Positions 7,233 through 20,893 of a stretch of 42,551 bases of DNA are shown here, piece by piece. Below the pieces are notes generated by a model, which had not been told where the DNA came from, did not search any database, and worked only from the letters and a program-made list of their open reading frames with translations. Source of the stretch: a virus; IMG/VR virus record IMGVR_UViG_3300025426_000052, positions 1 to 42,551 of that record; one strand, given 5' to 3'. The position numbers and the translations under genes were made by a program. Within the stretch, counting starts at the first letter, position 1. Each line of letters begins with the position of its first letter.

Positions 7233-7307
7233 TACATAGAAGGAGTGCCGATTAAGGACGACCTCAGCCTTCTGTGTGACTCAGGCCAAATGAAGTTTTA
7301 AAAAAAT

Positions 7308-7336: not shown

Positions 7337-7342
7337 TAAAAA

Positions 7343-8055: not shown

Positions 8056-8080
8056 TTGCTACGAGTGAATAACCGGCGGA

Positions 8081-8887
8081 CTAGTTTTTCCAGTCTTCTT
8101 CTGGTATCACTGACACTATCTCACCCTCGTGAATAACCAGTACATCTCCGCATAGGCATTCCCATAGCACCTCGCCTAATGAGTCCTCTACAAACAGGGT
8201 CATAAGCATGAGGCCATCGCCATCAATAAAACGACCTACACAAAACTCCCCCGAAATGCGATTAATCCCATCTACTATTTCTTGTAGTTCAATAAGGTCA
8301 TCAGGCTGGAATCCCTCGTGGATAATGTAATACTCTGCGCCCTCTATTTCATCGTCTTCAATGAAGTCTGTAAAGTGGTCTAGAACGGGCCTAAAAGGCG
8401 GTTCTACGGGTGCTGGTGCCATGTCCGATACTGGTGTATCCCCCCGCAAAAATTTTTCTATATCCTCAAATGGGCGTCTAGAACTATTTAGTCTTTGAAA
8501 CGTAGAACTAATGACCTCTCTAGCCTCTTCAACACTTTGAAACTCCGTAAAGGTTTCCTTGCCGTACTGTTTAAGCCAGCTCTCAAAGGCTTCGTCTCCT
8601 TGTCCCCCTGGAAAAAATTCATCTCTAAAAAATCTTGACATAAGCGCCCTTGGCTTTCCCTCTACATTTATAATAAAATCACCAATAAAGGCGTTGACGA
8701 AGAACTCTTTACCAGAGTCACTCCACACTTCTAACTCTAGCATGTTATTTGTACGGCTGATGACAAGTACTTCTCTTGAACCGGTATTTGTTGTTTTGAA
8801 GACTTCCCGGACCTCATTAATGTTTTTGCCATCCCATTTGGTGTACGGAAACTCCACGCCGTCTTTTATTCGAATGCAGGTTTTCAT
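8081..8887 (-). CDS. Actinophage two-copy beta-domain protein, unknown function
   Basis: 268 residues, acidic. The N-terminal part (VEFPYTKWDGKNINEVREVF ... FVNAFIGDFIINVEGKPRAL) has the layout of a widespread phage family that reads 'V-A-WDGTN-x-x-E-V ... G-D-x-I-I...EG'. The C-terminal part (FQPDDLIELQEIV ... LWECLCGDVLVIHEGEIVSVIP) repeats it, so it looks like an internal duplication joined by a Pro-rich linker (APAPVEPP). The function of the family is unknown. Leaderless: ATG lies 6 nt after the -10 box, and an SOS-type box lies just upstream of the promoter. Confidence 0.75.
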   Translation of the reverse strand: MKTCIRIKDGVEFPYTKWDGKNINEVREVFKTTNTGSREVLVISRTNNMLELEVWSDSGKEFFVNAFIGDFIINVEGKPRALMSRFFRDEFFPGGQGDEAFESWLKQYGKETFTEFQSVEEAREVISSTFQRLNSSRRPFEDIEKFLRGDTPVSDMAPAPVEPPFRPVLDHFTDFIEDDEIEGAEYYIIHEGFQPDDLIELQEIVDGINRISGEFCVGRFIDGDGLMLMTLFVEDSLGEVLWECLCGDVLVIHEGEIVSVIPEEDWKN

Positions 8888-9237: not shown

Positions 9238-10065
9238 CTAGAGATTGAACTCTCCCGGTAGTTTACTGGCTCTATCTGCGAGGATTTTAGTAGCCTTGAT
9301 TTCCTCGAAACTGTCACCGTCTGGCTTCCAAATGTTTTTAGCAACTGTTACCTCGTTGTCATGTTGCTCTACCGCTTTACGCTCTTGGAAGTCGGCTTCA
9401 GTTAAGGCGTAGATTTCTACCATCTCTTTGGCCCATACTTTACGGATACCGGCCAACGCTTCAGCGATTGTGAACTCATCAATCTCTAAGGCCTTAGCCT
9501 CTTTGGTAGCAGTCCACAGATTGCCTAGCGTGTACGATTGGGCAACCCTTACACAACCGCATTGGTACTGCACCGAGTGTTTAGGAGATTTCCCTTTAGG
9601 GTATTTCCTAACCATTGGAACTACTGCATCTAGTTCTTCGCTGTATAGGTAGTAACTAGGCAGAACTTGTAGCCAGTAGTCCTTGTGATGGTGTCCGCCG
9701 TCACTAGAACTAAGGGCAACATCTTGCACCATCTTTACTAACTTAGTGCCGCCAGCGATTGGAACTATGCTCTCTAGTTTGAGACTAGTTCCGGCGTAAG
9801 TTCTGGCTAGGTCTACGCTCACCGCATTAACCTTACCGCCTAACGCTAACTGGCGAACTATCCAAGCCGTCTTATCTGTTTCGGTTAGTCCAGTCGTGGC
9901 CGTTTCGATTTCGGCCTTAAACTGCTCTAAGTTATTTAGCGCACCCTGAGCGATAGCACCCATGAAGTCGCCGGCGTATTCTGCAACCTCTACAAGGTCA
10001 CCGCCTAACTCTACCCACTGCTCCGCCTTTAGTGTTTGCTTACACACTCTTACTGAACGTGACAT
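9238..10065 (-). CDS. Hypothetical 275-residue protein
   Basis: Not recognised. Helical N terminus (LGGDLVEVAEYAGDFMGAIAQGALNNLEQF), a central histidine-rich motif SSSDGGHHHKDYWL, and YQCGCVRVAQSYT, where two cysteines and the histidines might bind metal. The C terminus is charged and helical. It is driven by an ordinary TTGACA promoter rather than the palindromic type used by the genes to its right, yet its leader carries the same kind of hairpin (ACCGG-tagag-CCGGT) and GGAAATAAAG precedes the ATG. Confidence 0.75.
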   Translation of the reverse strand: MSRSVRVCKQTLKAEQWVELGGDLVEVAEYAGDFMGAIAQGALNNLEQFKAEIETATTGLTETDKTAWIVRQLALGGKVNAVSVDLARTYAGTSLKLESIVPIAGGTKLVKMVQDVALSSSDGGHHHKDYWLQVLPSYYLYSEELDAVVPMVRKYPKGKSPKHSVQYQCGCVRVAQSYTLGNLWTATKEAKALEIDEFTIAEALAGIRKVWAKEMVEIYALTEADFQERKAVEQHDNEVTVAKNIWKPDGDSFEEIKATKILADRASKLPGEFNL

Positions 10066-10126: not shown

Positions 10127-10155
10127 AGTCTACCATACTTTAGGGGCTCTGTCAA
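10127..10155 (-). promoter_or_regulatory. Sigma70-type promoter of the 10065 gene
   Basis: Minus-strand TTGACA (10150-10155), 17 bp, TAGACT (10127-10132). It has the same -10 type as the palindromic promoters but a consensus -35 box, and no palindrome. Confidence 0.75.
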
Positions 10156-10214: not shown

Positions 10215-10492
10215 GGGCTCTATAAATAAGGTGTCTAAATTGGGGCTCCAGTAATCATAAGGGGTTTCGCTTGTGAAACATTTCACAAAGTTTTTTTTCG
10301 GGCATTTTTCAGGTCGGGGATTTTAGGTCGGTTTGGGCTCTAAATAAATAAGGTCAGGGCTCTAGGTCAGGGCTCTTGGATTTTAGGTCAGGGCTCTAAA
10401 TAAATAAGGTCGGGGATTTAAGTTAGGGCTCTGATTTCAGTAATAAATAAGGTCGGTATTTTTAAGTCAATTTGGCTCTAATAAATAAGGTC
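10215..10492. repeat. Iteron-like repeat block, candidate replication origin
   Basis: No gene. Direct repeats of GGGCTCTAAATAAATAAGG-type units followed by TC occur at 10215-10234 (variant), 10335-10355, 10391-10411, 10441-10454 and 10474-10492, with extra RGGTC and GGGCTCT pieces between. The block is AT-rich and gene-free over about 300 bp. One further copy (GACCTTATTTATTA) lies inverted at about 20567-20580, at the far end of the palindrome region. Iterons plus AT-rich DNA suggest an origin or partition site. Confidence 0.5.
10271..10288. promoter_or_regulatory. Perfect 18-bp palindromic site
   Basis: TTGTGAAA-CA-TTTCACAA, inside the iteron block. The sequence is typical of a dimeric repressor or initiator site. 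It does not match the CGCG palindromes or the SOS boxes. Confidence 0.5.
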
Positions 10493-10628
10493 AAAGTTTT
10501 ACCGATTTCTAATCTTGACTAAAATGGTCAGGATTTGGTTTCTTCCTTTTATCGCGCTTTTTAACCCGGGGGGGCTGGTGGTTTTTAAGTTTTTTCTCTG
10601 TGAGCGTTTTTTATTCCGGGCGCAGAAA

Positions 10629-10678: not shown

Positions 10679-10993
10679 TTACCAGTCGGCGTACAACTTA
10701 ATCTCGTAGCCGTTCTCGAGGGTGCGTTGCAACTGCCAGACCTCATTCCAGTCAAGCGGTACAAGGTCACGAAGGTTGTCATTCTCAGAGTTAAGGTCAG
10801 AGTTCCAAGCGTTCACTATGTCCTCTGTAATCTCGAAACTACCGATACCGCTTGGGTGAGTTTCGTAGAAGTGAGCCATGCTCTCACCAGTCACCGATTC
10901 GATAACCGGGTAGGCACTGCTCTTTCTTAGAACTACCAAAGGTACTTGTGGCTTGTCGTCTTTAACTGCCCAGATGTAAGCGTCTAATCCCAT
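10679..10993 (-). CDS. MGLDAY-type hypothetical protein
   Basis: 104 residues from ATG 10991-10993 with AGGAGG upstream. It begins MGLDAYIWAV, like a family of small phage and bacterial proteins that start MGLDMY. It has a likely Tyr/His patch (MAHFYETHPSGIG) and C-terminal helices. Function unknown. First palindromic-promoter gene counted from the left. Confidence 0.72.
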   Translation of the reverse strand: MGLDAYIWAVKDDKPQVPLVVLRKSSAYPVIESVTGESMAHFYETHPSGIGSFEITEDIVNAWNSDLNSENDNLRDLVPLDWNEVWQLQRTLENGYEIKLYADW

Positions 10994-11042
10994 TTCAATC
11001 CTCCAAGTAATCCACCGGCTTCTCCGGTTTCCTACTACCACC

Positions 11043-11078
11043 AGTCTACTACAAGACCTTTTATCGCGCGTGCGCGAT
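11043..11078 (-). promoter_or_regulatory. Palindromic promoter of the 10993 gene
   Basis: 16-bp palindrome with T/A centre (11063-11078), 14 bp, -10 TAGACT (11043-11048). The leader then folds ACCGG-agaag-CCGGT ahead of the RBS. Confidence 0.75.
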
Positions 11079-11141
11079 GTATACGGCCACGCAGTTTTTA
11101 AGTTTTTTTCGTGTGGGCCTTTTTTATTCCGGACAGCAGAA

Positions 11142-11165
11142 TAGCCCGGGCTTTCGCCCGGGCTA
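11142..11165 (-). terminator. Hairpin after the 11423 gene
   Basis: TAGCCCGGGC / GCCCGGGCTA, 10-bp perfect stem, 4-nt loop, 12 nt past the stop. Followed by ATTCTG on the minus strand. Confidence 0.7.
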
Positions 11166-11177
11166 CCTGCTTTGTCT

Positions 11178-11423
11178 CTAGGCCGGTGTGCTGATTTCTT
11201 GCAGAGCCTCTAGGCCAGCCTTACGGATTTTATCCTTCTCATCATAAAGCGCACCGAACGCAGAGTGTAGGAAAGTTTCCAACTGGTTAGCGTTTCTAAA
11301 GAAGATTGCAAACCCTTCGCTTCTCAGAACTACGGTGTCATTGCTGTCGTCGTATAGGAAGTGAATTGCCTCGAATGGTTGCTCACCTTCTCCAACATGA
11401 ATGTCTGCTCTTACTATTGACAT
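11178..11423 (-). CDS. Hypothetical small protein
   Basis: 81 residues from ATG 11421-11423 with CGGAGG upstream. MSIVRADIHVGEGEQPFEAIHFLYDD... is strand-rich, then a helical C terminus (LYDEKDKIRKAGLEALQEI). No recognised domain. Single-gene unit with its own palindromic promoter and hairpin terminator. Confidence 0.7.
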   Translation of the reverse strand: MSIVRADIHVGEGEQPFEAIHFLYDDSNDTVVLRSEGFAIFFRNANQLETFLHSAFGALYDEKDKIRKAGLEALQEISTPA

Positions 11424-11471
11424 AACTACCTCCGAGATTTCCACCGGCGTTTCCGATTTCCATCTACTAAC

Positions 11472-11508
11472 AATCTACCATAGGGGGGGGGCATCGCGCG
11501 TGCGCGAT
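11472..11508 (-). promoter_or_regulatory. Palindromic promoter of the 11423 gene
   Basis: Palindrome 11493-11508, 15-bp gap containing a run of nine C, -10 TAGATT (11472-11477). A second, nearly complete palindrome starts at 11537, 44 bp upstream. Leader hairpin ATCGG-aaacg-CCGGT (one wobble). Confidence 0.75.
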
Positions 11509-11596
11509 AATAGCAGTTTTATTAAGTTTTTATTTAATCGCGCGAGCGCGAAGTCAGGTTGCCGGAAGTTTTCATTTTTTTCTGCGTGGGGTTTTT

Positions 11597-11968
11597 TTAT
11601 TTCTGACCAGTTCCGCCGGTAGCGATTTCGGTTCCGGTGGTTAGGTCGTAGATAGCAATTTGATTACGCTTCTGCCCTGCTCTGATTGCTGTCATTTTAT
11701 CGGTGAAGGTTTCCACTACATCTAGGTAGACCAAGCCATCACTACGCCAAGCACCTAGATAGTGTGAGGCCTTATCTAATGTCCATCGGTACTGCCAGAG
11801 AAACTTGCTGACTGAACTAGTGTCAAACTCTGCTTCGGGTATTACATCAGAGAAGTCTGTACCCATTGAAACTATGTAGCCGGTAGTCGGGCTAGTTCCA
11901 TCTATTGTGCTGACACTAGCACCGCCCTCTGTCTTTACTGCTTCTACGAACTCTGTCACCTTAAACAT
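11597..11968 (-). CDS. Hypothetical protein
   Basis: 123 residues, RBS GGGGGGC. The N terminus is helical; the rest is beta-rich with many Thr/Ser (TIDGTSPTTGYIVSMG) and a C-terminal TTGTEIATGGTGQK tail. Not recognised. Unusually long leader (about 80 nt) compared with neighbouring units. Confidence 0.7.
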   Translation of the reverse strand: MFKVTEFVEAVKTEGGASVSTIDGTSPTTGYIVSMGTDFSDVIPEAEFDTSSVSKFLWQYRWTLDKASHYLGAWRSDGLVYLDVVETFTDKMTAIRAGQKRNQIAIYDLTTGTEIATGGTGQK

Positions 11969-12046
11969 TTGCCCCCCAATTTTTTTTAGTGGTGGCCCTT
12001 GAAGTTTTGACGCTTACTACCGCCTGCTCCAAGAGCCACTACAACC

Positions 12047-12082
12047 AGAATACCAAACGACCCATTATCGCGCGAGCGCGAT
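12047..12082 (-). promoter_or_regulatory. Palindromic promoter of the 11968 gene
   Basis: Palindrome with A/T centre (12067-12082), 14 bp, -10 TATTCT (12047-12052). Spacing and -10 are the same as at 13395-13430; even the gap sequence gggtcgtttgg is shared. Leader hairpin GCTC-ttg-GAGC. Confidence 0.75.
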
Positions 12083-12141
12083 GCTAACCCACTCGCAGTT
12101 TTTAAGTTTTTTCTGTGTGGCTGTTTTTTGTTTTGGAGGCA

Positions 12142-12188
12142 CAAGGCCAGCCAGCCTACCCGGGGGGGTTTCAGACTGACTGGCCTTG
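12142..12188 (-). terminator. Hairpin after the 12436 gene
   Basis: CAAGGCCAG / CTGGCCTTG plus an inner CAG/CTG, large loop containing a CCCGGG palindrome. No T tract follows; a terminator or transcript-end stabiliser. Confidence 0.55.
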
Positions 12189-12196
12189 CGACCTTA

Positions 12197-12436
12197 CTAC
12201 CTGCGTCTGCGGTAGTAGAACCTTACCCATAGTACTATCGTGTATCCAGTAAGGATACCTACGAGCCCGGCTAAAATGCTAGGGATAATGCTGTCTATCC
12301 ATTGAGTTAGAACGTCACAGTTGTTGAAGGGGATACGGCTCTGTGTCCAGTAAAAAGAACCTACTAGAAACAACAACCCAAGACCCCAAACGAAACAACG
12401 CTCCTCTAATGTACCTTTTTGATTTCTGCGATTCAT
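12197..12436 (-). CDS. Two-pass membrane protein
   Basis: 79 residues, RBS GGAGG. Two hydrophobic segments (CFVWGLGLLFLVGSFYW and IIPSILAGLVGILTGYTIVLWV) separated by a polar loop with one Cys, ending in an RFYYRRRR tail that would face the cytoplasm. Function unknown; could be a superinfection or lysis accessory. Confidence 0.72.
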   Translation of the reverse strand: MNRRNQKGTLEERCFVWGLGLLFLVGSFYWTQSRIPFNNCDVLTQWIDSIIPSILAGLVGILTGYTIVLWVRFYYRRRR

Positions 12437-12476
12437 AACTGCCTCCTTGTTTTTCCGGCTTCAACCGGCTACAAAT

Positions 12477-12512
12477 AATTTATCACAACGGTTTGCATCG
12501 CGCGTGCGCGAT
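12477..12512 (-). promoter_or_regulatory. Palindromic promoter of the 12436 gene
   Basis: Palindrome 12497-12512, 14 bp, -10 TAAATT (12477-12482). A half-site ATCGCGCG begins at 12541, 44 bp upstream. Leader hairpin CCGG-ttgaag-CCGG. Confidence 0.75.
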
Positions 12513-12604
12513 TATACACCATTATCTTTTTTTCTTTTTAATCGCGCGTAGGCTCCGGCTAAAAGCCGAAGTTTTTAACTTTTTTTTGCGTGAGCGTTTT
12601 TTAT

Positions 12605-12796
12605 CTAGTAGCCCAGCCATTGCAACAATTCAGTTGCGTTGTAACTTTTGGTTTCCTCGTCATTGTCTACATCCTCTAAAAAGGAAACAAGCATTTGCCC
12701 TGCTGCCGTCTTGTTGTTCCCGGCGTGTTCTAGGATTATTTTGGCTACCTGTTTTATGTTAAGGGTTACGCCCTCGGCCTGTTCTAGGGAGGTCAT
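12605..12796 (-). CDS. Hypothetical small acidic protein
   Basis: 63 residues, helical and acidic, no recognised domain (VAKIILEHAGNNKTAAGQMLVSFLEDVDNDEET). Its ATG overlaps the stop of the preceding gene by one base (TAATG), so both come from the palindromic promoter at 12992-13027. Confidence 0.65.
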   Translation of the reverse strand: MTSLEQAEGVTLNIKQVAKIILEHAGNNKTAAGQMLVSFLEDVDNDEETKSYNATELLQWLGY

Positions 12797-12954
12797 TATG
12801 CCACCGCCCTTTCCACTACGAAAACATCAGAGCCGTTTCCTGCTTCTTGCCAGTTAATCATTTTGTAAATGAACTTGATGCCCTGCTTGGTGTTTGCTGA
12901 ATCTACTTCCCACTGGAACTTTTCCCCAGTCCTTGTATTCCGTAACTGCCACAT
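12796..12954 (-). CDS. Hypothetical small protein, first of a two-gene unit
   Basis: 52 residues, MWQLRNTRTGEKFQWEVDSANTK..., RBS AGGAGG 5 nt upstream. Beta-rich, unknown. Translationally coupled to the 12605-12796 gene. Confidence 0.65.
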   Translation of the reverse strand: MWQLRNTRTGEKFQWEVDSANTKQGIKFIYKMINWQEAGNGSDVFVVERAVA

Positions 12955-12991
12955 AACTGCCTCCTTGTTTTTCGGCTAACTGCCTATTAAC

Positions 12992-13027
12992 AAGTTATCA
13001 TCTCAGGTTGCATCGCGCGTGCGCGAT
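12992..13027 (-). promoter_or_regulatory. Palindromic promoter of the 12954 unit
   Basis: Palindrome 13012-13027, 14 bp, -10 TAACTT (12992-12997). Half-site ATCGCGCG at 13055, 43 bp upstream. The leader hairpin is weak here (GGC-agtta-GCC only). Confidence 0.72.
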
Positions 13028-13129
13028 TTAATAATGATTAAAAGGTTTAATTTTATCGCGCGAGCAGCACGGGTTGAGCCCAGAGTTTTTAACTTTTTTC
13101 TGCGTGAGAGTTTTTTAATTGGAGGCGGA

Positions 13130-13155
13130 CTGGTAGGGGTTTTACCCCCTACCAG
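13130..13155 (-). terminator. Hairpin after the 13354 gene
   Basis: CTGGTAGGGG / CCCCTACCAG, 10-bp perfect stem with 6-nt loop, 50 nt past the stop. No T tract directly after it. Confidence 0.65.
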
Positions 13156-13204
13156 CCCTGTATGACACTACCCCCGGGAGTTAATACGAGGGTAGCGGTT
13201 CTTT

Positions 13205-13354
13205 TCAACGACCCTTAAGCCGTCTCAATTCTTCAATGGCCTTTTCAAGTAAATCAACTAGACCCCTAGCGAAATCCTTAAGGTCGTCAATGTCCTTAGC
13301 CTGTGCTTCGGCAATTAAATCGTATGCCTCTTGCTGTTTTGTTTTTTCAGCCAT
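13205..13354 (-). CDS. Small helical protein
   Basis: 49 residues (MAEKTKQQEAYDLIAEAQAK...), amphipathic and predicted as one long coiled coil ending LLEKAIEELRRLKGR. RBS GGAGAG is 4 nt from the ATG. Unknown function; single-gene unit. Confidence 0.65.
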   Translation of the reverse strand: MAEKTKQQEAYDLIAEAQAKDIDDLKDFARGLVDLLEKAIEELRRLKGR

Positions 13355-13394
13355 ACTGCTCTCCTTTGTTTCCGGCTCTTAACCGGCTACCACC

Positions 13395-13430
13395 AGAATA
13401 CCAAACGACCTATCATCGCGCGTGCGCGAT
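13395..13430 (-). promoter_or_regulatory. Palindromic promoter of the 13354 gene
   Basis: Palindrome 13415-13430, 14 bp, -10 TATTCT (13395-13400). Leader hairpin CCGG-ttaagag-CCGG. Confidence 0.77.
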
Positions 13431-13578
13431 ACGTATGGGCTGGTGGTTTTTAACTTTTTTCTGCGTGGGTGTTTTTTATTCCTTTTGCGGTATCTACGTT
13501 GCCATTCTCGTCACTCAAATACTTTGGCAATACCTAGGTATACCCCCTATGTCATCGCGCGTTAGGAGAGCCGAGAGC
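13431..13578. other. Gene-free stretch, possible decayed unit
   Basis: Contains a copy of the A-tract element (from 13446), a half palindrome at 13554, and short blocked reading frames on the minus strand (a piece reading YLSDENGNVDTAKGI without a start). No intact gene. It may be the remains of a unit whose gene was lost. Confidence 0.35.
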
Positions 13579-13597
13579 CGAGAGCGCATGGCTCTCG
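13579..13597 (-). terminator. Hairpin after the DUF3846 gene
   Basis: CGAGAGC / GCTCTCG, 7-bp stem with 5-nt loop, 17 nt past the stop, preceded by further GAGAGCC repeats that allow alternative pairings. No T tract. Confidence 0.5.
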
Positions 13598-13613
13598 ACT
13601 CCCGAGGTAAAAC

Positions 13614-13958
13614 TTATGCTGGCTGGTATTCAAGCAGGTACTTAACCTGCTCGTCAGATAGTCCAAGGGTATTGCCCTCGTCATCTGTACCGCTAGTAAA
13701 TACTGCGTTGCCTACAATTATGTCAGTCTTGTCGTAAATGTTTTCCCATAGACCTGTGGCTGTTACGTTGAAAGGCAGTCTTTCCAACTTTCCTTCCTCA
13801 TTAACCCATAAGTCCAGTTCTCCGAGTGGCACACATTGAACCCACCCTTCGACCGCTTCCTTGATTGTCTCGTAGCAACTCTCGTTGGTAAACTCCACGA
13901 CCTCTTTAAGACCGTTTGTTCTGATGATTACCGCCTTTTGTATTGGCAAGGTTGTCAT
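13614..13958 (-). CDS. DUF3846 family protein
   Basis: 114 residues. AVIIRTNGLKEVVEF ... GWVQCVPLGELDLWVNEEGKLERLPFNVTATGLW ... DIIVGNAVFTSGTDDEGNTLGLSDEQV fits DUF3846. In that family a strand repeat precedes a dEeGk-lp-N-AT core and a GNAV motif. The family is frequent in plasmids and phages, often near ArdC antirestriction genes as here. Molecular function unknown. Confidence 0.8.
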   Translation of the reverse strand: MTTLPIQKAVIIRTNGLKEVVEFTNESCYETIKEAVEGWVQCVPLGELDLWVNEEGKLERLPFNVTATGLWENIYDKTDIIVGNAVFTSGTDDEGNTLGLSDEQVKYLLEYQPA

Positions 13959-13999
13959 GTCATTCCTCTCTCTCTCCGCACCGCTTTCGGTACATACCC

Positions 14000-14034
14000 A
14001 GTTTATCGTTTTGGTTTAATCGCGCGGGCGCGAT
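14000..14034 (-). promoter_or_regulatory. Palindromic promoter of the DUF3846 gene
   Basis: Palindrome with GG/CC-side centre (14019-14034), 13 bp, -10 TAAACT (14000-14005). Leader hairpin GTACCG-aaag-CGGTGC with one wobble. Confidence 0.75.
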
Positions 14035-14079
14035 GTTGGGCCCCACGCAGTTTTTAACTTTTTTCTGCGTGGAACTTTT

Positions 14080-14952
14080 TTATTTCGTTATTGCTTTGCC
14101 CTCTATGACGAACGTAGCCGCCTTCTGCGCTCTGCCCACTGCCTTAATTAACAGTTTGGGGTCATTCTTTAGTACCTTCAGCCAACTGGCTATGTAACTG
14201 GCAGAATTGTCTAGTGTCGCCGGGGCAATACCTGTCTCCGAGGATAAGAACGCCGAGGTGAACTCTGCAACTAATTCCTCTTCTGAATACAGTTCCGAAC
14301 CGAAGTAGTGGTTTTCAGTAATCCACCCTCTGTCTAGTCTGTCCTTGTGTCCAGTTGAGTGTGCTATTTCGTGGAAGGAAGTTGCGTAGAAGGCTTCTGC
14401 GCTTGTAAAACCCGCCGGGTGTGGCAGGGTGATGGTGTCTGCCTTTGGTGAGTAGAACGCTCTGTCGCCCTTAAAGAATACTGACAGTTTCTCCCTTTCG
14501 TAGTAATCATTCACCAACTTTTGGGCGGTGTCAATAATTTTGACGCTATCCCTGTCCTTTAACTTTTCGTATTCCGGGGCGGTTTCCCACTCTGCTTGTT
14601 CTGCATTGAATACCGTAAAGTATCTAAGGACTACGGCTTTCTTTGTACCGCCCTCATCATCAACGGTGCTGTCTACCTCTCTCCATAGAACTACTGCTGT
14701 ACCCTTTTCGCCCTTGCGTACGTTTCCACCTTGCCCTTTGATTTGAGCGAATGTTCCCCACCAAGGACTTTCGTAACCGGCACTCTCCGCCGAAAACGAC
14801 AGTAGCCAATGGTTAATGCCGTTATAGCGTTTCTTGCTACTTAGCGACTTAGGTGCATACCCACTAGATACCCACTCTTTTCGCCAAGGTGCTGTTCCCT
14901 TTTCCAACTGGTCAATAATTGTCTTTGCAACAATGTCATAGGCACTTGCCAT
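14080..14952 (-). CDS. ardC: ArdC-type antirestriction protein with metallopeptidase domain
   Basis: 290 residues, typical ArdC length. The N-terminal ssDNA-binding domain (DUF1738-like) includes GTAPWRKEW, YNGINHWLL and the strand motif VRKGEKGTAVVLWRE. The C-terminal zincin domain carries HEIAHSTGH (HExxH) followed by EELVAEFTSAFL, whose Glu is the third zinc ligand in this fold. ArdC proteins protect incoming DNA from restriction in conjugative plasmids. Active-site residues are intact. Preceded by GAGGGAGAG and a palindromic promoter. Confidence 0.88.
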   Translation of the reverse strand: MASAYDIVAKTIIDQLEKGTAPWRKEWVSSGYAPKSLSSKKRYNGINHWLLSFSAESAGYESPWWGTFAQIKGQGGNVRKGEKGTAVVLWREVDSTVDDEGGTKKAVVLRYFTVFNAEQAEWETAPEYEKLKDRDSVKIIDTAQKLVNDYYEREKLSVFFKGDRAFYSPKADTITLPHPAGFTSAEAFYATSFHEIAHSTGHKDRLDRGWITENHYFGSELYSEEELVAEFTSAFLSSETGIAPATLDNSASYIASWLKVLKNDPKLLIKAVGRAQKAATFVIEGKAITK

Positions 14953-14988
14953 ACTCTCCCTCTTTCTACCGGCTTAACCGATACCAAC

Positions 14989-15024
14989 AAACTAGCATGT
15001 TAGTTGGCATCGCGCGTGCGCGAT
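14989..15024 (-). promoter_or_regulatory. Palindromic promoter of ardC
   Basis: Palindrome 15009-15024, 14 bp, -10 TAGTTT (14989-14994). Half-site at 15051, 42 bp upstream. Leader hairpin TATCGG-ttaag-CCGGTA with one wobble. Confidence 0.77.
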
Positions 15025-15110
15025 TAATGTGGGTCTAAATGTTTTTTTTAATCGCGCGTACATAAGGCGTAAGCCTCGTAGTTTTTAACTTTTTTCTTTG
15101 TGAAAGATTT

Positions 15111-15719
15111 TTATTCTTTAGAGGCTTCGTAAAGTTCAAGAACTATTTTGTTTGCTTCTATTTGGTCTGCCTTTTTAGGGCAGTCATCAAACCAATGTTC
15201 GGGGTCTACTTCCCAGTCCTCGAAACAAACACATTCCAACCTACCTCGTTTTACATAGTCAGCGTGGCTATTTGGTATGTCCCAATTTTCAGTAGAAATA
15301 CTTGGCTCGCCATCAGGTAGGTAGTTCAACTTAACTTCACCACCCCAACCTTGTTCTTCCTCGAACCACCAGTTAAGAACTAATGAGTTGTCTACACAAT
15401 AATCTACAAGCCAGTCCATAACTTTGTCCGGGATACCCCAGGGGGTGTCAAAGTTAAGGTACAGGTCGCCATCTCGGTCAATGCCACTTTCACCTTCGGA
15501 AGCGTCCCATTTAACACCCCAGTTTTCTATGTTCCACTCATACCAACCATCAACGTATTCCTCTATGTCGGTAGGGCTAATAACGTTGTAAAACGTTAAT
15601 TCACCTTCACCTTTTGTTTTGTCTGCTAAGGGGTGCGGAGAGCATAACTTACGGTACAGCCTCTCTACGTCATTAAGTCCACCGCTTACGGTCACTTTAT
15701 TTGTTACCCAGTTCGGCAT
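15111..15719 (-). CDS. YubB/DUF1281-like ferredoxin-fold protein
   Basis: 202 residues from ATG 15717-15719 with GGGAG 7 nt upstream. MPNWVTNKVTVSGG, NVISPTDIE, WNIENWGVKWDASEGE, FDTPWGIPDKVM and EEQGWGGEV match the YubB ferredoxin-like family of plasmids and phages (MPNW start, ENWGTKWDA core, W-x-P, E-x-G-x-G). Function unknown; in plasmids such genes lie in leading regions with antirestriction genes, as here next to ardC. The C terminus adds a CVCFEDWEVDPEHWFDDCP segment. Confidence 0.8.
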   Translation of the reverse strand: MPNWVTNKVTVSGGLNDVERLYRKLCSPHPLADKTKGEGELTFYNVISPTDIEEYVDGWYEWNIENWGVKWDASEGESGIDRDGDLYLNFDTPWGIPDKVMDWLVDYCVDNSLVLNWWFEEEQGWGGEVKLNYLPDGEPSISTENWDIPNSHADYVKRGRLECVCFEDWEVDPEHWFDDCPKKADQIEANKIVLELYEASKE

Positions 15720-15747
15720 TTGCTTTCTCCCTTGTTTGCCTACAACC

Positions 15748-15783
15748 AATCTACACTTCAACCCGGTATCGCGCGGGCGCGAT
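15748..15783 (-). promoter_or_regulatory. Palindromic promoter of the YubB-like gene
   Basis: Palindrome 15768-15783, 14 bp, -10 TAGATT (15748-15753). Leader hairpin TTGT-aggcaa-ACAA. Confidence 0.74.
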
Positions 15784-15828
15784 ACTATGCCCAGCCGGAT
15801 TTTTTAATAATCTCGGCGTGGACATTTT

Positions 15829-15993
15829 TTAATCTTTAGCGTAACCGACTAAGGCAATTCCAAAGTAATCGTCTAGTCCTTCGGAAGTTCCACAAGGCGA
15901 ACAGATTTCCGTCTTGTTGTCCACCCGACCTAGAGCCGGGTGTCCAGTCCAAACTTCTAAACAACGTGGACACTTGAAAGTCTTGACTGTCAT
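15829..15993 (-). CDS. Actinophage zinc-ribbon protein (WTGHPALGRVDN motif)
   Basis: 54 residues with CPRC and CSPCG pairs. The core sequence WTGHPALGRVDNKTEICSPCGTSEGL is close to a very common actinophage zinc-ribbon motif (HPALSRxDNxTEICSxCG). Likely binds one zinc; function unknown. ATG overlaps the stop of the 15993-16322 gene (TAATG), so the two are coupled. Confidence 0.78.
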   Translation of the reverse strand: MTVKTFKCPRCLEVWTGHPALGRVDNKTEICSPCGTSEGLDDYFGIALVGYAKD

Positions 15994-16322
15994 TATTCCT
16001 CTATTCCATCAAACAAGCCATCAAGCGAACCCTTGTGGCGACTCTCTGCCTCGGCGAACAATGCCTCTCGTTCTTCTTCGGGCAACTCCTCGATAGTCTG
16101 TGCTACTTCAAGTAACTTGCTCTGAAAGCCTATTGAGTAAGGTGCTAACTTCATCAACAAGTCTCGAAACTCCTCGGCGTGTAATTGCTTTTCAAGGTCG
16201 TTCACATCTTCTTGCCACTCATTATAAAAATACTGTGACACTTGAAAGACCGCAAATGTTATTGCTTCCATCTCTTTCTGATGAAACTGAGGCCCCTCAA
16301 CTAGTTCATGATTTTCTGCCAT
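15993..16322 (-). CDS. Hypothetical helical acidic protein
   Basis: 109 residues, Glu-rich and helical throughout (NDLEKQLHAEEFRDLLMKLAP, ELPEEEREALFAEAESRHKG). No recognised domain. RBS GGGGAG. First gene of a two-gene unit with the zinc-ribbon protein. Confidence 0.7.
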   Translation of the reverse strand: MAENHELVEGPQFHQKEMEAITFAVFQVSQYFYNEWQEDVNDLEKQLHAEEFRDLLMKLAPYSIGFQSKLLEVAQTIEELPEEEREALFAEAESRHKGSLDGLFDGIEE

Positions 16323-16365
16323 ACTTCTCCCCTTTGTTAGGACACCGGCTTTTCCGGCTACTAAA

Positions 16366-16400
16366 AATCTACCACATTGATGCTATCGCGCGCGCGCGAT
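16366..16400 (-). promoter_or_regulatory. Palindromic promoter of the 16322 unit
   Basis: Uninterrupted alternating CG palindrome (16385-16400), 13 bp, -10 TAGATT (16366-16371). Half-site ATCGCGCT at about 16418. Leader hairpin CCGG-aaaag-CCGG. Confidence 0.75.
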
Positions 16401-16482
16401 TATTTAAAGAAACTATGTATCGCGCTAGCAGCCCGCAGTTTTTAACTTTTTTCTGTGTGGAACTTTTTTATCTTGCGGACAA

Positions 16483-16508
16483 CCCCCCACCCTTTTCAGG
16501 GTGAGGGG
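16483..16508 (-). terminator. Hairpin after the VWA gene
   Basis: CCCCCCACCC / GGGTGAGGGG with one mismatch and a 6-nt loop, about 30 nt past the stop. No clear T tract. Confidence 0.5.
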
Positions 16509-16540
16509 CGAGAAAGGGAATACTCTTTACTGTCCTGACC

Positions 16541-17968
16541 TTACCAGCCTCTCGGTGTCACCGTCTTACCATCTTGACCGCCGAGGTGCTTAGGCAGTAA
16601 TGCGCCGACTACACCGATAGCCTTGCTTTTAGCAGTTCTAGGATTACTAAGAACCTTAACCGCTTCACCTAGTGTCGGAACCATTATTACCTTGTGTCGT
16701 TTTACCATCTCGGCACAAGCCTTAGCACCTTCTTGGAATAGTTGGTCACGTTTGTTAGTAACCATTCCATCACACACCCAGATAATCGGCTCTGAACCTC
16801 TGCGCTGACCAATAGCCCAGTCAAGTGCCGGGCCGTCTACACCGTTACCCTGACCCTTTGTTACATTCTTTAGGCTACTGACCCTCTTACCTCTATCGGC
16901 AAGAATAGTCATGTTGTACTTATTCTTTTGACTGTGTGAGTATCCAGCAATTAGAGCCCCGGGTGCTTTTTCTACCATTGTCTCTATGTCATCTATGGAT
17001 AGGCTCATTGAGCCCGATAGGTCAAGCAGTAGAATACCGCCATTGTTGCGTGGCTTCTGACTAAAGATACGCTTCTCCGGGTCGGTCAGTAGTCGGCTTG
17101 GGTAGGCAATACGTTTGCCAGTAGAACTAGCCTTCTTACGCCTAGCCAAGTGACCCTTTACCTGTGTATCTAATTTTATTCCCGAGTGTATTTTTAATGT
17201 TGCCCACCCATCTTTTCCATAGTCAAGCGGTACACCAGTATTTTCCGGTTTGTAGCCCTGATTAGACTTAAAATAACTACTAATTACGTTGGCTATGTTG
17301 TGAGTGAACCGCATGAACCCCCACGAAAGTTGTTCTTTAACTTGGCCTTCATCATCATACTCATAGGTAGTAGGTTCATTTTCCGATAAGTGCGTAGCGG
17401 AATAGCCTCTGGTTTGTCTTAGAATAGCCAGTTCCATCTGTCGTAAGTCTTTAGCCCATTCTTTATTTACCGAACGTACCCCGGCAATAAAGTTCCTAAA
17501 TGCCTTACCGCCGATTAAGCCAGCACCAAAGGCTATGGCTTGGTCATAAGCCTTGTCACTACCTTCTCTTGCTAGTCGCTTACCGCTTTCTTTTTCAGAG
17601 CCATCAACTAGGTTGTTAATGTCATAGTCGCCAGTTGCTTTGAGGATAGCGTTAATGCGTATTTCCTCTGCGCTGATAATGGCTTCCGGCTCTAGGCCTG
17701 ACCATTCTGCGTACCTTGATAATTGGTCGGGGTCATTGGGCGAAACCTTTGCGTGGACAAGTTCATGGGCTCGTACAGTTCGGGCTGTCTCGTCATCTGC
17801 TAAAGGCACTTTAATCTTGTGGTCAATAAAGTTAGTCCATGCTTCACCTCGTAAGGCTTGACCTTCTTGAACTTCCCATCTCTCGGTGTCACCGTCTTTT
17901 CTTGAACCATAAACAAGTTCAGGATAAGCAACTGACCTCTCTACTTTATCTTTTTTACTCTGTGCCAT
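16541..17968 (-). CDS. VWA-domain protein (CobT-like partner of MoxR ATPase)
   Basis: 475 residues from ATG 17966-17968; AAAGGGAAAA precedes it, favouring this start over an ATG 15 nt earlier. The N-terminal part has ARTVRAHELVHAKVSP, a zincin-like HExxH-type motif. The C-terminal half has a von Willebrand A domain with the MIDAS motif LLLDLSGSMSLS (DxSxS) and later DGPALDWAIG and IIWVCDGMV. VWA proteins of this kind pair with MoxR/CobS AAA ATPases to remodel or metallate target proteins. The MoxR-type gene is the next gene upstream. The target is unknown. Confidence 0.83.
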   Translation of the reverse strand: MAQSKKDKVERSVAYPELVYGSRKDGDTERWEVQEGQALRGEAWTNFIDHKIKVPLADDETARTVRAHELVHAKVSPNDPDQLSRYAEWSGLEPEAIISAEEIRINAILKATGDYDINNLVDGSEKESGKRLAREGSDKAYDQAIAFGAGLIGGKAFRNFIAGVRSVNKEWAKDLRQMELAILRQTRGYSATHLSENEPTTYEYDDEGQVKEQLSWGFMRFTHNIANVISSYFKSNQGYKPENTGVPLDYGKDGWATLKIHSGIKLDTQVKGHLARRKKASSTGKRIAYPSRLLTDPEKRIFSQKPRNNGGILLLDLSGSMSLSIDDIETMVEKAPGALIAGYSHSQKNKYNMTILADRGKRVSSLKNVTKGQGNGVDGPALDWAIGQRRGSEPIIWVCDGMVTNKRDQLFQEGAKACAEMVKRHKVIMVPTLGEAVKVLSNPRTAKSKAIGVVGALLPKHLGGQDGKTVTPRGW

Positions 17969-18012
17969 AATTTTCCCTTTCATTGGCAGTAGGGGCTTTT
18001 CCCTACATCAAT

Positions 18013-18048
18013 AATCTAGCACCGGGGGGGTTATCGCGCGGGCGCGAT
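18013..18048 (-). promoter_or_regulatory. Palindromic promoter of the VWA gene
   Basis: Palindrome 18033-18048, 14 bp with a run of seven C, -10 TAGATT (18013-18018). Leader hairpin GTAGGG-aaaagc-CCCTAC: a different sequence from the CCGG stems, but the same position and shape. Confidence 0.77.
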
Positions 18049-18080
18049 AATAGCCACAACCGGATTTTTTTAAGAAAAGC

Positions 18081-18109
18081 GAGGGGGGTGGATTTCTCCA
18101 ACCCCCCTC
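18081..18109 (-). terminator. Strong terminator after the MoxR gene
   Basis: GAGGGGGGT / ACCCCCCTC with inner GGA/TCC pairing and 4-nt loop, 11 nt past the stop, followed on the minus strand by GCTTTTCTT. Confidence 0.78.
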
Positions 18110-18119
18110 TAGGGTGAAC

Positions 18120-18851
18120 TTACAAGGTCAAGCGACCAATACGTAGTGCTTCAACAATTCCTTCGGCCTTCTTGCGACCAAAGGTGAGGATAGCCGAGCG
18201 TTCCTCTGACAACCCTGATTGAACAAGTTGCTGATAGGCGTAGAAGCCTCTTAGCGATACTCGGCGTTCAGGTTCGGCAGAAACTACGGACTCTGCTACT
18301 TTACGTAAGTTCTCTGACAGTAGAGACAATGCTTCGGGGTGCGGAGCGTTAATCTCAATAGCAACTGGGAAACGGTCACGAATTGCTACCGGCAAGTCGT
18401 CAGGGTGTTCAATGTTGCTAGTAATTACTGCCGAGAAACCGGGTTGCGGTGTAACGACCTCGCCTGTATCAGGGTTCTGCCAACTAGAACTGGCGTGGCT
18501 ATCAAGGAAGTTAAGCAACTGTCCAAGAACATCACCACTAGCCTTGTCACCTTCGTCTACTACCAAGCGACCACCGGCTCGCCAAGCCTGAACTGCTACG
18601 CCTTCTGCGAATGTCCAGTTGTCGCCGTTAGGCTTCCAAGTACCTGATACGTCTGCCGTAGTCATGTCCTCTGAACACACAAGGCGGTAACTACCGCCAG
18701 TAATGTTGCCGTAGAACAGACCAGCATAAGTTTTACCAGTACCCGGGGGGCCGTATAGTAATACTCGGTCAATACCTGCGTTGATTACATCAGAGAAGTC
18801 TTGCCAACATTGAGGCAACCTTACTCCGCTATTTGTTAATACATCAGTCAT
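18120..18851 (-). CDS. MoxR-type AAA+ ATPase
   Basis: 243 residues from ATG 18849-18851 with AAGGGTG upstream. Walker A LLYGPPGTGKTYAGL (about residues 30-44), Walker B GGRLVVDEGDKA, sensor-1 AVITSNIEHP and arginine-finger region LPVAIRDRFPV define a MoxR/CobS-like AAA+ ATPase. It precedes the VWA gene, each with its own palindromic promoter. The pair resembles CobS/CobT and MoxR/VWA chaperones, which need both partners. It is shorter than bacterial MoxR (about 300+) but the core is complete. Confidence 0.86.
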   Translation of the reverse strand: MTDVLTNSGVRLPQCWQDFSDVINAGIDRVLLYGPPGTGKTYAGLFYGNITGGSYRLVCSEDMTTADVSGTWKPNGDNWTFAEGVAVQAWRAGGRLVVDEGDKASGDVLGQLLNFLDSHASSSWQNPDTGEVVTPQPGFSAVITSNIEHPDDLPVAIRDRFPVAIEINAPHPEALSLLSENLRKVAESVVSAEPERRVSLRGFYAYQQLVQSGLSEERSAILTFGRKKAEGIVEALRIGRLTL

Positions 18852-18904
18852 ACTTTCACCCTTTCGTGAAGTCGTGTCCGGCTTGTCCGAACTCCGACAC
18901 ATCT

Positions 18905-18940
18905 AAACTACCACCCGGAGTGCTATCGCGCGTGCGCGAT
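18905..18940 (-). promoter_or_regulatory. Palindromic promoter of the MoxR gene
   Basis: Palindrome 18925-18940, 14 bp, -10 TAGTTT (18905-18910). Half-site at 18970, 45 bp upstream. The leader can pair GTGTC with GACAC around a nested CGG/CCG stem. Confidence 0.76.
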
Positions 18941-19018
18941 AGTATCGTGCTTCGTTTTTTCTAAAAATTATCGCGCGGAGCCCCCGCAGTTTTTAACTTT
19001 TTTCTGCGTGGGTGTTTT

Positions 19019-19300
19019 TTATACTGTAAAACTCCTAAGGTAAACCATCAAGTCATTTGTGATTTCTTGGTCTCTTTCAACTAAGCCTGCTTCGTCTGGT
19101 GTTATCCACTGACCAGAATAGTTGTCGTAAATGTAGCCATCACTAAACTTATTTTCTAAGTCGTCTTGTGCCACTTCATAGCCATTTGCATCTGAAAACT
19201 TTACGAGAAAGTAGTGCTCATACTGTGGACACTTAGGGCAACGACCGGTACAGCAATTACAATAACTTTCGTAAATGTGGTCTGTACAACATTTGCCCAT
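19019..19300 (-). CDS. Cysteine-rich N-terminal zinc-binding protein
   Basis: 93 residues. Seven cysteines in the first 25 residues (GKCC, YCNCC, RCPKC) imply one or two zinc sites; the rest is an acidic, aromatic domain (DGYIYDNYSGQWITPDE). Function unknown. Its ATG overlaps the stop of the preceding 45-residue gene (TAATG). Confidence 0.7.
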   Translation of the reverse strand: MGKCCTDHIYESYCNCCTGRCPKCPQYEHYFLVKFSDANGYEVAQDDLENKFSDGYIYDNYSGQWITPDEAGLVERDQEITNDLMVYLRSFTV

Positions 19301-19437
19301 TAGAAGCCTACTAGTGATAGGTACTCCGTAAAAGCGTCTGAAGGCGTTTTCCCAGTTACTTGGTTACCCTTGTCATCAAAGATAGCCCACTCTCCATGAG
19401 CGTTTGCCGTCAATGTAAAGTTCAGTTCAGTTTCCAT
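19300..19437 (-). CDS. Small hypothetical protein
   Basis: 45 residues: METELNFTLTANAHGEWAIFDDKGNQVTGKTP..., beta-hairpin-like with a D-x-x-G turn. The ATG is embedded in the end of the preceding gene (ATGGAAACTGA overlap). Middle gene of a three-gene unit. Confidence 0.65.
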   Translation of the reverse strand: METELNFTLTANAHGEWAIFDDKGNQVTGKTPSDAFTEYLSLVGF

Positions 19438-19555
19438 TTTCTCTCTCTTCTAGTAATTGCTCAATGGGATTGTTTAAGAACGGATTTCCGGGTATGTTTC
19501 CCCAGACTTCATTCAGAAGTTGCTCCCATGCTTCGTACGTTTTATCCTTGGGCAT
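19427..19555 (-). CDS. Small hypothetical protein, first of a three-gene unit
   Basis: 42 residues: MPKDKTYEAWEQLLNEVWGN..., helical, ends in LLEERENGN. RBS TTAGGAG 6 nt from the ATG. Overlaps the next gene by 11 nt. Unknown. Confidence 0.62.
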   Translation of the reverse strand: MPKDKTYEAWEQLLNEVWGNIPGNPFLNNPIEQLLEERENGN

Positions 19556-19591
19556 TTCTGCTCCTAACTTTTGTGGCGTTTCCACAACAAA

Positions 19592-19637
19592 ACTGTATCA
19601 CAACGGGCCGCGGCCCAACACATCGCGCGCGCGCGAT
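19592..19637 (-). promoter_or_regulatory. Palindromic promoter with longer spacing
   Basis: Alternating CG palindrome (19622-19637), then 24 bp instead of 14 before -10 TACAGT (19592-19597). The extra 10 bp (one helical turn) includes a GGGCCGCGGCCC palindrome. Serves the three-gene unit starting at 19555. Confidence 0.6.
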
Positions 19638-19674
19638 TTGGGAAACTCCAAAAAAATCTTGGATTATTTCCCTC

Positions 19675-19689
19675 GCCGCCAACGGCGGC
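19675..19689 (-). terminator. Short hairpin after the 19968 gene
   Basis: GCCGCC-aac-GGCGGC a few bases past the stop at 19693. No T tract; a weak terminator candidate. Confidence 0.45.
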
Positions 19690-19692
19690 AGA

Positions 19693-19968
19693 CTACTTGA
19701 TTATTCCCAACTTTCGGGCTTCCTCAACATACTTCAATGTAATGCCCCTAGAACCCAAAGAGACCGACTTCTCGACCTCGTAAAAAGGCGAGTTAAGTTT
19801 CTTGCCATCTATTTGCACACCAAAAACCCAACCCCAAAGACTTTCACCCTTGTCCAGCGTTTCATTTAAGTTCTTAATGTCGTAATCGCTTAATGCTTCT
19901 AGGTCAAAGACCAACATGTTTTCGGCGTTTCCGTAATTTCCTTCTCTGTCAATGTAGACCAATGCCAC
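19693..19968 (-). CDS. Hypothetical protein (GTG start)
   Basis: 91 residues from a GTG at 19966-19968; AAGGAG lies 6 nt upstream and no ATG fits. Strand-rich start (MALVYIDREGNYGNAENMLVF), acidic middle, basic C terminus. Not recognised. Single-gene unit. Confidence 0.66.
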   Translation of the reverse strand: MALVYIDREGNYGNAENMLVFDLEALSDYDIKNLNETLDKGESLWGWVFGVQIDGKKLNSPFYEVEKSVSLGSRGITLKYVEEARKLGIIK

Positions 19969-20012
19969 TAGGCACTCCTTCTTGCAAAACTAGGCTTGTT
20001 CCCAGTACTAAT

Positions 20013-20045
20013 ACTTTATCACATCACTTTTATCGCGCGCGCATT
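20013..20045 (-). promoter_or_regulatory. Palindromic promoter with truncated site
   Basis: ATCGCGCGCGC (from 20032) keeps the promoter-side arm and loses the distal arm. It is followed by 13 bp and -10 TAAAGT (20013-20018). Leader hairpin ACTGGG-aacaag-CCTAGT with one wobble. Confidence 0.65.
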
Positions 20046-20048
20046 ATT

Positions 20049-20096
20049 AAAAAAACGAGAACCGCTCTCGGCGGGAAAAGTAGCAGACCCGCCGAG
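20049..20096 (-). terminator. Intrinsic terminator after the AT-hook gene
   Basis: CTCGGCGGG / CCCGCCGAG (20067-20096), then 11 nt and TTTTTTT on the minus strand (20049-20055). The nearby GGGGG/CCCCC pair at about 20101-20120 can form a second hairpin. Confidence 0.75.
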
Positions 20097-20141
20097 AACG
20101 TGGGGGAAGGTGAACCCCCCAAATCTCTGACCTATTAACCC

Positions 20142-20435
20142 CTACTTATTAGAGGGGCGACCACGTTTGCTACCTGCGCTGGGCTCAAGTATGTTACCGA
20201 CATAGCGGACATAGACCCTGAACTCTCGCTTATCGCCTACCCATACCGTTCGGTATGCTCGCTCGAACTCCTTACCGGAGAAGCGTGGATTGGCAGTAGT
20301 AGGGCGACCATAAGTACCAAGCAGAGCCCACTTTAGGGGATTAGCCCTAAGTTCTTGTTCTACTATGGCAACATACGTTCTCCCATTTCTGGTTCTGTTT
20401 GTTACTGCCTCTGGTTGTTTCCAAGTAACTTTCAT
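20142..20435 (-). CDS. Small basic protein with C-terminal AT-hook
   Basis: 97 residues, strongly basic. The N-terminal beta domain (TWKQPEAVTNRTRNGRTYVAIVEQELRANPLKW) is not recognised; the C terminus SKRGRPSNK contains an RGRP AT-hook core, which binds the minor groove of AT-rich DNA. As the first gene transcribed in the palindromic series, it could bind the A-tract elements found between units (inference). RBS AAAAGGTG. Confidence 0.68.
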   Translation of the reverse strand: MKVTWKQPEAVTNRTRNGRTYVAIVEQELRANPLKWALLGTYGRPTTANPRFSGKEFERAYRTVWVGDKREFRVYVRYVGNILEPSAGSKRGRPSNK

Positions 20436-20486
20436 AGATAGTCACCTTTTCTTTGCTTTACTTCAACGGCACTCGCCGACATAAAA

Positions 20487-20521
20487 AAGTTATCACATGG
20501 GTACCATCGCGCGGGCGCGAT
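20487..20521 (-). promoter_or_regulatory. Palindromic promoter of the AT-hook gene
   Basis: Palindrome 20506-20521, 13 bp, -10 TAACTT (20487-20492). A further full palindrome lies at 20607-20622. Leader hairpin CGGC-gagt-GCCG. Confidence 0.75.
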
Positions 20522-20566
20522 AATAACACATTCGGGGCTTTCGGGGTTTTTAAGGTTTTTCCCAGA

Positions 20567-20893
20567 CGACCTTATTTATTACGTGCGTGGGGGGCTCAAA
20601 ATTGGCATCGCGCGCGCGCGATTACCTGTGCGGTTAGCGGGGAACCCTTCCGGTTTTTGATTATTCTTGTGTGTGAGAAAATTATATTTTGGATTTTAAG
20701 GAATTGAATCGCGCGTGTATAGGCGTTTATACGGGGATTTCCCTGCGGTTTTTAATTCATTCTTGTGTGTGAGAAAAATATTTTATTCATTAAGGGCAAA
20801 AAAGGTACCATATACGCGCGTAAAGCACCATTTATGGGGGCGTAAGCATGCTCTCCTCACCAAACCCTTGAAATTATAGGCTTTTAATTGTGA
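20567..20893. other. Gene-free regulatory stretch at the right end of the palindrome region
   Basis: Holds an inverted copy of the iteron (GACCTTATTTATTA near 20567-20580), a full palindrome without a -10 box (20607-20622), a half-site near 20708, an ACGCGCGT near 20813, and two direct repeats (20651-20690 and 20746-20787). A five-codon frame with a GAGGAG RBS near 20845 is too short to call. Confidence 0.5.
20651..20787. repeat. Two direct copies of a GGTTTTT..TTCTTGTGTGTGAG element
   Basis: Copies at 20651-20690 and 20746-20787 share CGGTTTTT, ATTCTTGTGTGTGAGAAAA and a trailing TTTT run. They look like diverged forms of the A-tract element found after most genes between 10.5 and 19 kb. Confidence 0.6.

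Follow-up and report, generated by a model that had tools for sequence, protein, structure and literature searches.

A palindrome in place of the -35 element marks a putative regulon of accessory genes in uncultured freshwater phages of one family

When examining the sequence of an uncultured lake phage (one IMG/VR virus record, IMGVR_UViG_3300025426_000052; all of its 42,551 bases are hereinafter denoted the window, and G000 in comparisons with other contigs), we observed a block of accessory genes whose promoters share a perfect 16-bp palindrome in the position where the -35 element is normally found. The existence of one regulon that is built on a single palindrome covering the -35 position is strongly supported by sequence comparison, and a dedicated DNA-binding factor for the whole gene set appears to be the best inference. 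On balance, the observations taken as a whole seem to be best explained by a dyad-bound homodimer that would substitute for the contact between sigma and the -35 element and would thereby activate the block.

The perfect palindrome, ATCGCGC-NN-GCGCGAT, is present in 15 copies, all within positions 11,063-20,622 and none elsewhere in the 42.5-kb contig. One further, degenerate copy at 20032, in which the promoter-proximal half CGCGCGAT is intact, brings the total to 16, so the initial annotation, which had reported about sixteen copies located only between 11.06 and 20.62 kb, was accurate in this respect. The relatives described below are 78-96 kb long, two of them with terminal repeats, so the window is only a part of the phage genome, and the confinement of the palindrome to the block holds for that part. 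The single-base center (8-1-7) that had been assigned to the palindrome has to be corrected: the actual dyad symmetry is 7-2-7 bp, 16 bp in total, and the second center base, read on the transcribed (minus) strand, is C in every copy. When 2 mismatches were tolerated, a related pattern of 14 bases yielded 19 matches compared to 0.49 expected from shuffles (maximum, 3). The gap between the perfect copies and the mismatched sites is unusually sharp: when up to 3 mismatches over the 14 fixed bases are allowed, there are 15 sites with no mismatches, one with 1, none with 2 and one with 3.

The palindrome is tightly linked to a -10 box. On the minus strand, TANNNT is found 13-15 nt downstream of 13 of the 15 perfect dyads (random mean 0.63, maximum 4 in 2000 trials); the extended form TGNTANNNT accounts for 10 of these 13 boxes, with 0.05 expected. 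By inspection, the degenerate copy at 20032 is followed by TGATAAAGT at a spacing of 13, so that 14 of the 16 sites conform to the spacing of 13-15 bp that had been claimed for nearly all of them. The exceptions are the dyad at 19622, with its -10 box at 24, that is, one helical turn (10 bp) beyond the other sites, and the dyad at 20607, which is not accompanied on either side by a -10 box at the usual spacing and probably serves as an auxiliary site, 101 bp upstream of the dyad at 20506. If the -10 box is set at -12 to -7, the palindrome spans -42 to -27, with the center at -34.5; the distance from the palindrome to the start codon is about 60 nt (range 48-98).

As originally noted, the palindrome occupies the -35 position and there is no consensus -35 element: the corresponding slots of the dyad promoters match TTGACA at a mean of 1.15 out of 6 bases, below the background of 2.46. 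By contrast, two of the three other extended -10 promoters, those at 10,132 and 21,981, both outside the block, match TTGACA at 6/6, as the initial annotation had it. The first of these (10127..10155, minus strand) reads TTGACA-N17-TAGACT, with the first base of the -10 box at 10132, and lies upstream of the gene 9238-10065. The comparison of TTGACA matches between the other extended -10 promoters and the dyad promoters gave p = 9e-4 for the window, p = 2.5e-5 for the related contig G001 and p = 1.4e-4 for another, G002. In addition to the extended -10 boxes, upstream half-sites, a regularly placed A-tract element and leader stem-loops, all described below, are features that had not been noted previously.

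The dyad in related phages

Relatives of the window phage were found by pattern scans of IMG/VR and whole-contig searches. The same dyad is present in 30 copies in G002 (78.9 kb), 20 in G001 (95.9 kb), 19 in G012 (78.4 kb), 7 in G009 and 6 in G003; the reversed pattern had no matches in the IMG/VR scans of virus contigs. Three further contigs (G016, G017 and G004) are almost the same as the window in sequence and do not count as independent. To judge from the core proteins, the dyad phages belong to one family: the identity of the proteins of G001, G002 and G012 to those of the window is 65-80% for the terminase, 44-65% for the helicase and 55-71% for RecA. The accessory genes under the dyads are largely different between G001 and the other phages, so the dyad is kept where its surroundings are not. 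The dyads of the relatives likewise sit in the accessory block, amid unrelated intergenic sequence; the scan of the contig and its relatives that had been proposed as a check thus found matches confined to the block in the window and recurrence of the dyad in the accessory block of the relatives.

Each phage appears with its own spacing between the dyad and the -10 box, namely, 10-12 in G009, 12 in G001 (19/20 sites), 13-15 in the window, 14-16 in G002 and 24-27 in G012. The number of sites at the fixed spacing (13/15 in the window, 23/30 in G002, 19/20 in G001, 18/19 in G012 and 7/7 in G009) is far above random, and hardly any -10 boxes occur on the opposite side of the dyad, with few in random controls. 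In G012, the dyads are located at about -45, so that the -35 slot is free, yet the -35 elements there are mostly poor. Variant dyads also exist, TCGCGT-ACGCGA in G008 and mixed TCGCGT or TACGCGA forms in G010 and G011; in 7 of 8 cases, the G008 variant lies 33 nt from the -10 box, and the promoters downstream of it have a full TTGACA. Beside the variant palindromes, positions 833-8200 of G008 (L069) contain long alternating CG/TG/CA stretches that could favor Z-DNA.

The predicted transcripts of the dyad promoters open with a small stem-loop (z = -7.7 in the window, -10.4 in G002, -6.5 in G012 and -4.2 in G009, relative to mononucleotide shuffles), which was not seen in G001 by the same shuffle test, nor in G025. 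In an alignment of 20 leaders of G002, from which those without an evident stem were excluded, 4 of the 5 pairs show two-sided, pair-keeping changes, and the loop is AAACG-like. Because the TTGACA promoters of the same phages also have leader stem-loops, these are a general leader feature rather than a part of the switch; such structures were seen in G008 and other contigs as well. Their location at the predicted +1 lends support to a transcription start about 6-7 nt after the -10 box.

The window encodes a WhiB protein, as does the family of its relatives, so these are probably actinophages; in INPHARED, nothing was matched by megablast of the first 25 kb or by tblastn of two proteins. Contigs G019-G037, which carry a LexA-like gene but no dyads, looked like counter-examples; the dyad block may, however, simply be missing from those assemblies, given that G023 and G025 end at or near the gene that corresponds to 9238-10065 in the window. 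This gene, which borders the block in those palindrome phages in which it was detected and encodes a protein with GGHD-like and CGC motifs, has homologs in G001, G002, G003, G005 and G012, and has no convincing match to a Pfam or PHROG family.

Activation, repression and the putative dyad-binding protein

Under the favored scheme, the block would be a regulon that comprises about 15 transcription units of one or two genes, each with a host-type extended -10 box (TGNTANNNT) and with the -35 element replaced by a perfect dyad centered at about -34.5. This dyad would be bound by a sequence-specific homodimer, most likely a product of the phage genome, which would supply the upstream contact that is otherwise made by sigma region 4 at TTGACA, and the whole block would thereby be switched on as one class, conceivably one that is separate in time. 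We favor activation because the spacing is fixed, because the -35 elements are mostly poor in G012 where no overlap forces them to be, and because the site at 19622 is shifted by one turn. By analogy, the layout, a lost -35 element combined with a dyad in a fixed register, is that of activated phage promoters, namely, phage Mu Pm and the middle promoters of phage T4. Of the alternatives offered by the initial annotation, a dedicated activator or a repressor with an alternative sigma contact, the notion of a dedicated factor is favored, whereas the alternative sigma contact is not required since the -10 box is an ordinary extended one and the same phages use TTGACA elsewhere.

Several considerations weigh against this scheme. 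G008 keeps the full TTGACA with the variant dyad upstream, and G012 is mixed; the differences in spacing between the phages are not whole helical turns; and a dyad-binding protein was not found among the phage genes considered. Furthermore, neither a -35 element nor an activator is indispensable for an extended -10 promoter (PMC4390567), and the dyad could thus be where a repressor binds. In that case, the promoters would fire at once with the host polymerase until a phage protein blocked sigma at the -35 position and shut the accessory genes together. This is a serious although distinctly less likely possibility. It would fit the strong, extended -10 boxes, which belong to the type that functions without a -35 element (PMC4390567), the location of all dyads (-31 to -52) inside the usual polymerase footprint, and the G008 promoters, which look fully competent unaided. 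However, repression tolerates variable operator position, and yet the spacing is 12 at 19/20 sites in G001 and 13-15 in the window; moreover, the -35 elements are mostly poor also in G012, although the dyad there lies clear of them. A repressor of lysogeny, in particular, appears less likely, given that 7 contigs, some of them incomplete, yielded no tyrosine integrase.

A more elaborate version of activation, which we regard as rather improbable, would be a new form of sigma appropriation in actinophages, in which the phage WhiB loosens the contact of sigma with the -35 element, a separate dyad-binding phage protein replaces this contact so that all palindrome promoters come on in concert, and each lineage slid the dyad to its own register. 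Proteins of the WhiB family are known to bind region 4 of sigma-A (PMC10245118, PMC3905903).

Still more doubtful is the binding of the dyad by a host transcription factor that the phage has borrowed. Such a factor would account for the fact that the dyad is not assignable to any phage gene, and there is a precedent in alphaproteobacterial phages, which borrow the host regulator CtrA (PMC9437464). However, in 298 genomes of one actinobacterial order, the dyad amounts to 6 single matches, and the dyad with a promoter was detected in 0 of 246 genomes of the phylum, although the true host may lie outside the genomes searched. In addition, the half-sites vary among related phages (ATCGCGC compared to TCGCGT in G008 and TACGCGA in G011).

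The gene that follows the phage recA (31103-31336) encodes a LexA-like DNA-binding domain without a peptidase domain. This winged-helix protein is encoded in all seven long contigs first compared, its structural model is confident (pLDDT 89.5) and resembles, among others, LexA DNA-binding domains, and one residue of the recognition helix co-varies with the half-site in 7 phages. It is nevertheless very unlikely to be the regulator: with n = 7, the co-variation is not controlled for phylogeny, and SOS-type boxes mark the recA operon to which the gene itself belongs in many relatives. Specifically, the box GAACANNTGTTC, or a close GAACN4GTTC variant, directly precedes recA in about eleven relatives and is the likelier target. 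In the window, three LexA-type GAACNNNNGTTC boxes were detected (8945, 9008 and 9068), none of them at dyad promoters; they lie about 60 bp apart, upstream of the gene 8081-8887. A fold search with the LexA-like model also returned Zalpha matches, which were set aside given that Asn, Tyr and Trp, which we take to be the key contact residues of Zalpha, appear to be unmatched in this protein. Another candidate, the AT-hook-tailed protein 20142-20435, was rejected as well: the fold is uncertain (pLDDT 71.6), there is no convincing match in the PDB, and the protein is encoded also in contigs without the dyad.

Finally, the CG-alternating palindromes might act through DNA shape, as Z-DNA or a cruciform formed under supercoiling, rather than through a protein-specific sequence. 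Several copies do, indeed, alternate throughout, and long arrays of CG/TG/CA are present in G008. However, the 7-bp half-sites are invariant, including the outer AT pairs, and in 5 copies of the window and many of G002 the alternation is interrupted by a CC or TC center, so we give this explanation hardly any credence.

Transcription units of the block and their surroundings

The promoters of the block are all on the minus strand, and the genes assigned to them are those that they are predicted to drive. The perfect palindrome 11063..11078 (-10 TAGACT, 11043-11048, spacing 14) precedes 10679-10993, and 11493..11508 (-10 TGGTAGATT, hexamer 11472-11477, spacing 15) precedes 11178-11423 and is accompanied by a second, near-perfect site at 11537-11552. 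The palindromes 12067..12082 (-10 TGGTATTCT, 12047-12052) and 12497..12512 (-10 TGATAAATT, 12477-12482; half-site at 12541), both with a spacing of 14, drive 11597-11968 and 12197-12436, respectively. The same spacing is found for 13012..13027 (-10 TGATAACTT, 12992-12997; half-site at 13055), which serves 12796-12954 together with 12605-12796, and for 13415..13430 (-10 TGGTATTCT, 13395-13400), which serves 13205-13354.

Family matches were obtained for three products, ArdC, DUF3846 and a MoxR-like AAA ATPase, as initially annotated, whereas the labels 'YubB-like' and 'VWA' find no Pfam match. The DUF3846 gene (13614-13958) is driven from 14019..14034 (-10 TAAACT, 14000-14005, spacing 13), and the anti-restriction gene ardC (14080-14952) from 15009..15024 (-10 TGCTAGTTT, 14989-14994, spacing 14; half-site at 15051). 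Next come 15768..15783 (-10 TAGATT, 15748-15753, spacing 14), for 15111-15719, and 16385..16400 (-10 TGGTAGATT, 16366-16371, spacing 13; half-site at 16419), for 15993-16322 and 15829-15993. The gene 16541-17968, the one previously described as VWA-like (PHROG 33218), is under 18033..18048 (-10 TGCTAGATT, 18013-18018, spacing 14), and the MoxR-like gene 18120-18851 is under 18925..18940 (-10 TGGTAGTTT, 18905-18910, spacing 14; half-site at 18970). The aberrantly spaced palindrome 19622..19637 (-10 TGATACAGT, 19592-19597, spacing 24) is upstream of 19427-19555; the degenerate copy 20032..20047 (-10 box at 20013-20018, read from the sequence) drives 19693-19968; and 20506..20521 (-10 TGATAACTT, 20487-20492, spacing 13) drives 20142-20435, which encodes the small protein with a KRGRP AT-hook-like tail. 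The putative auxiliary palindrome, 20607..20622, has no assigned strand.

The additional upstream sites, six in all, are mostly half-sites in the CGCGCGAT orientation; the start-to-start distance from the dyad is 42-45 bp for five of them and 34 bp for the sixth. Farther upstream is an A-tract element (GTTAAAAAC/CTTAAAAAC). In those four single-site promoters that are cleanest, its start precedes the palindrome by exactly 24 nt (for example, GTTAAAAAC at 14050..14058, minus strand); where there are two sites, the element precedes the reconstructed outer one by about 23 nt in three cases and by 12 nt in two. In single-site promoters, the A-tract is located at about -66 to -58, a position that could suit binding of the alpha C-terminal domain upstream of an activator. 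By inspection of their sites, the element is absent in G001 and G002.

Other repeats flank the block. Five copies of a AATAAATAAGGTC-type direct repeat, iteron-like, are located at 10303-10501, between the gene 9238-10065 and the palindromes, and two near-duplicate 51-bp segments (20645-20695 and 20741-20791) lie just upstream of the block. At 36995-42331, there are two genes for collagen-like (QG-rich) tail fibers, the repeats of which probably explain the many CCTTGGT-type words in the window.

Comparison with known phage promoters and operators

The promoter class described here is real and coherent and, as far as the literature searched shows, undescribed; our literature searches returned no description of it. 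It is defined from sequence alone, in an uncultured freshwater phage family on whose transcriptional control the papers found are silent. The class groups an anti-restriction gene with other accessory genes into one regulon, and the exact sequence of the dyad is available as bait for the regulator. Furthermore, one dyad at different fixed distances from the -10 box in related phages provides a natural series on the evolution of the register of an upstream factor on RNA polymerase.

Multiple copies of one phage operator per genome are familiar from the stoperators of cluster A mycobacteriophages (PMC9283540), but those are asymmetric, distributed genome-wide and recognized by a repressor that acts as a monomer and halts elongation as well. 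Cluster K mycobacteriophages, also actinophages, carry ESAS inverted repeats and the 13-bp GGG...CCC SAS near the starts of 11-19 genes, for which expression control has been proposed (PMC3203893, PMC12699233). The arms of ESAS, however, are 17 bp long, imperfect and variably spaced, and the SAS is at the start codon, whereas the dyad here is short, exact and tied to the -10 box; the 13-bp GGGATAGGAGCCC is not found at the start codons, and the listed leaders carry other, covarying stem-loops near +1.

In the T4 middle promoters, the MotA box, 12 +/- 1 bp upstream of the -10 box, replaces the -35 element in nearly 60 promoters, about half of which carry TGn (PMC2988021). The dyad similarly takes the place of the -35 element at roughly this distance from a sigma -10 box (10-16 bp in five contigs, 24-27 in G012). 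The sequences differ, however: the MotA box, (a/t)(a/t)(a/t)TGCTTtA, is asymmetric, centered at -30, tolerant to change and works with AsiA, whereas the dyad is invariant. Neither MotA nor AsiA was seen in Pfam and PHROG scans, which covered part of the proteins, and no homolog of Mor, the activator of phage Mu, was recognized.

In Mu Pm, a Mor dimer on a 16-bp inverted-repeat element at -43.5 replaces the -35 element, and the promoter is used by the host sigma-70 polymerase, with a contribution from upstream A/T sequence (PMC4390567). The promoters described here share with Pm the 16-bp dyad element in place of the -35 element, the -10 box of the type read by the host polymerase and the upstream A/T sequence. 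The differences are in the arms, 5 bp in Mu compared to perfect 7 bp here, in the number of promoters, which is large in these phages, and in the center, which is at -34.5 in the window and at about -31 to -47 in the relatives, so that only G012, at about -45, comes near the position that is typical of Mor/C-type activation.

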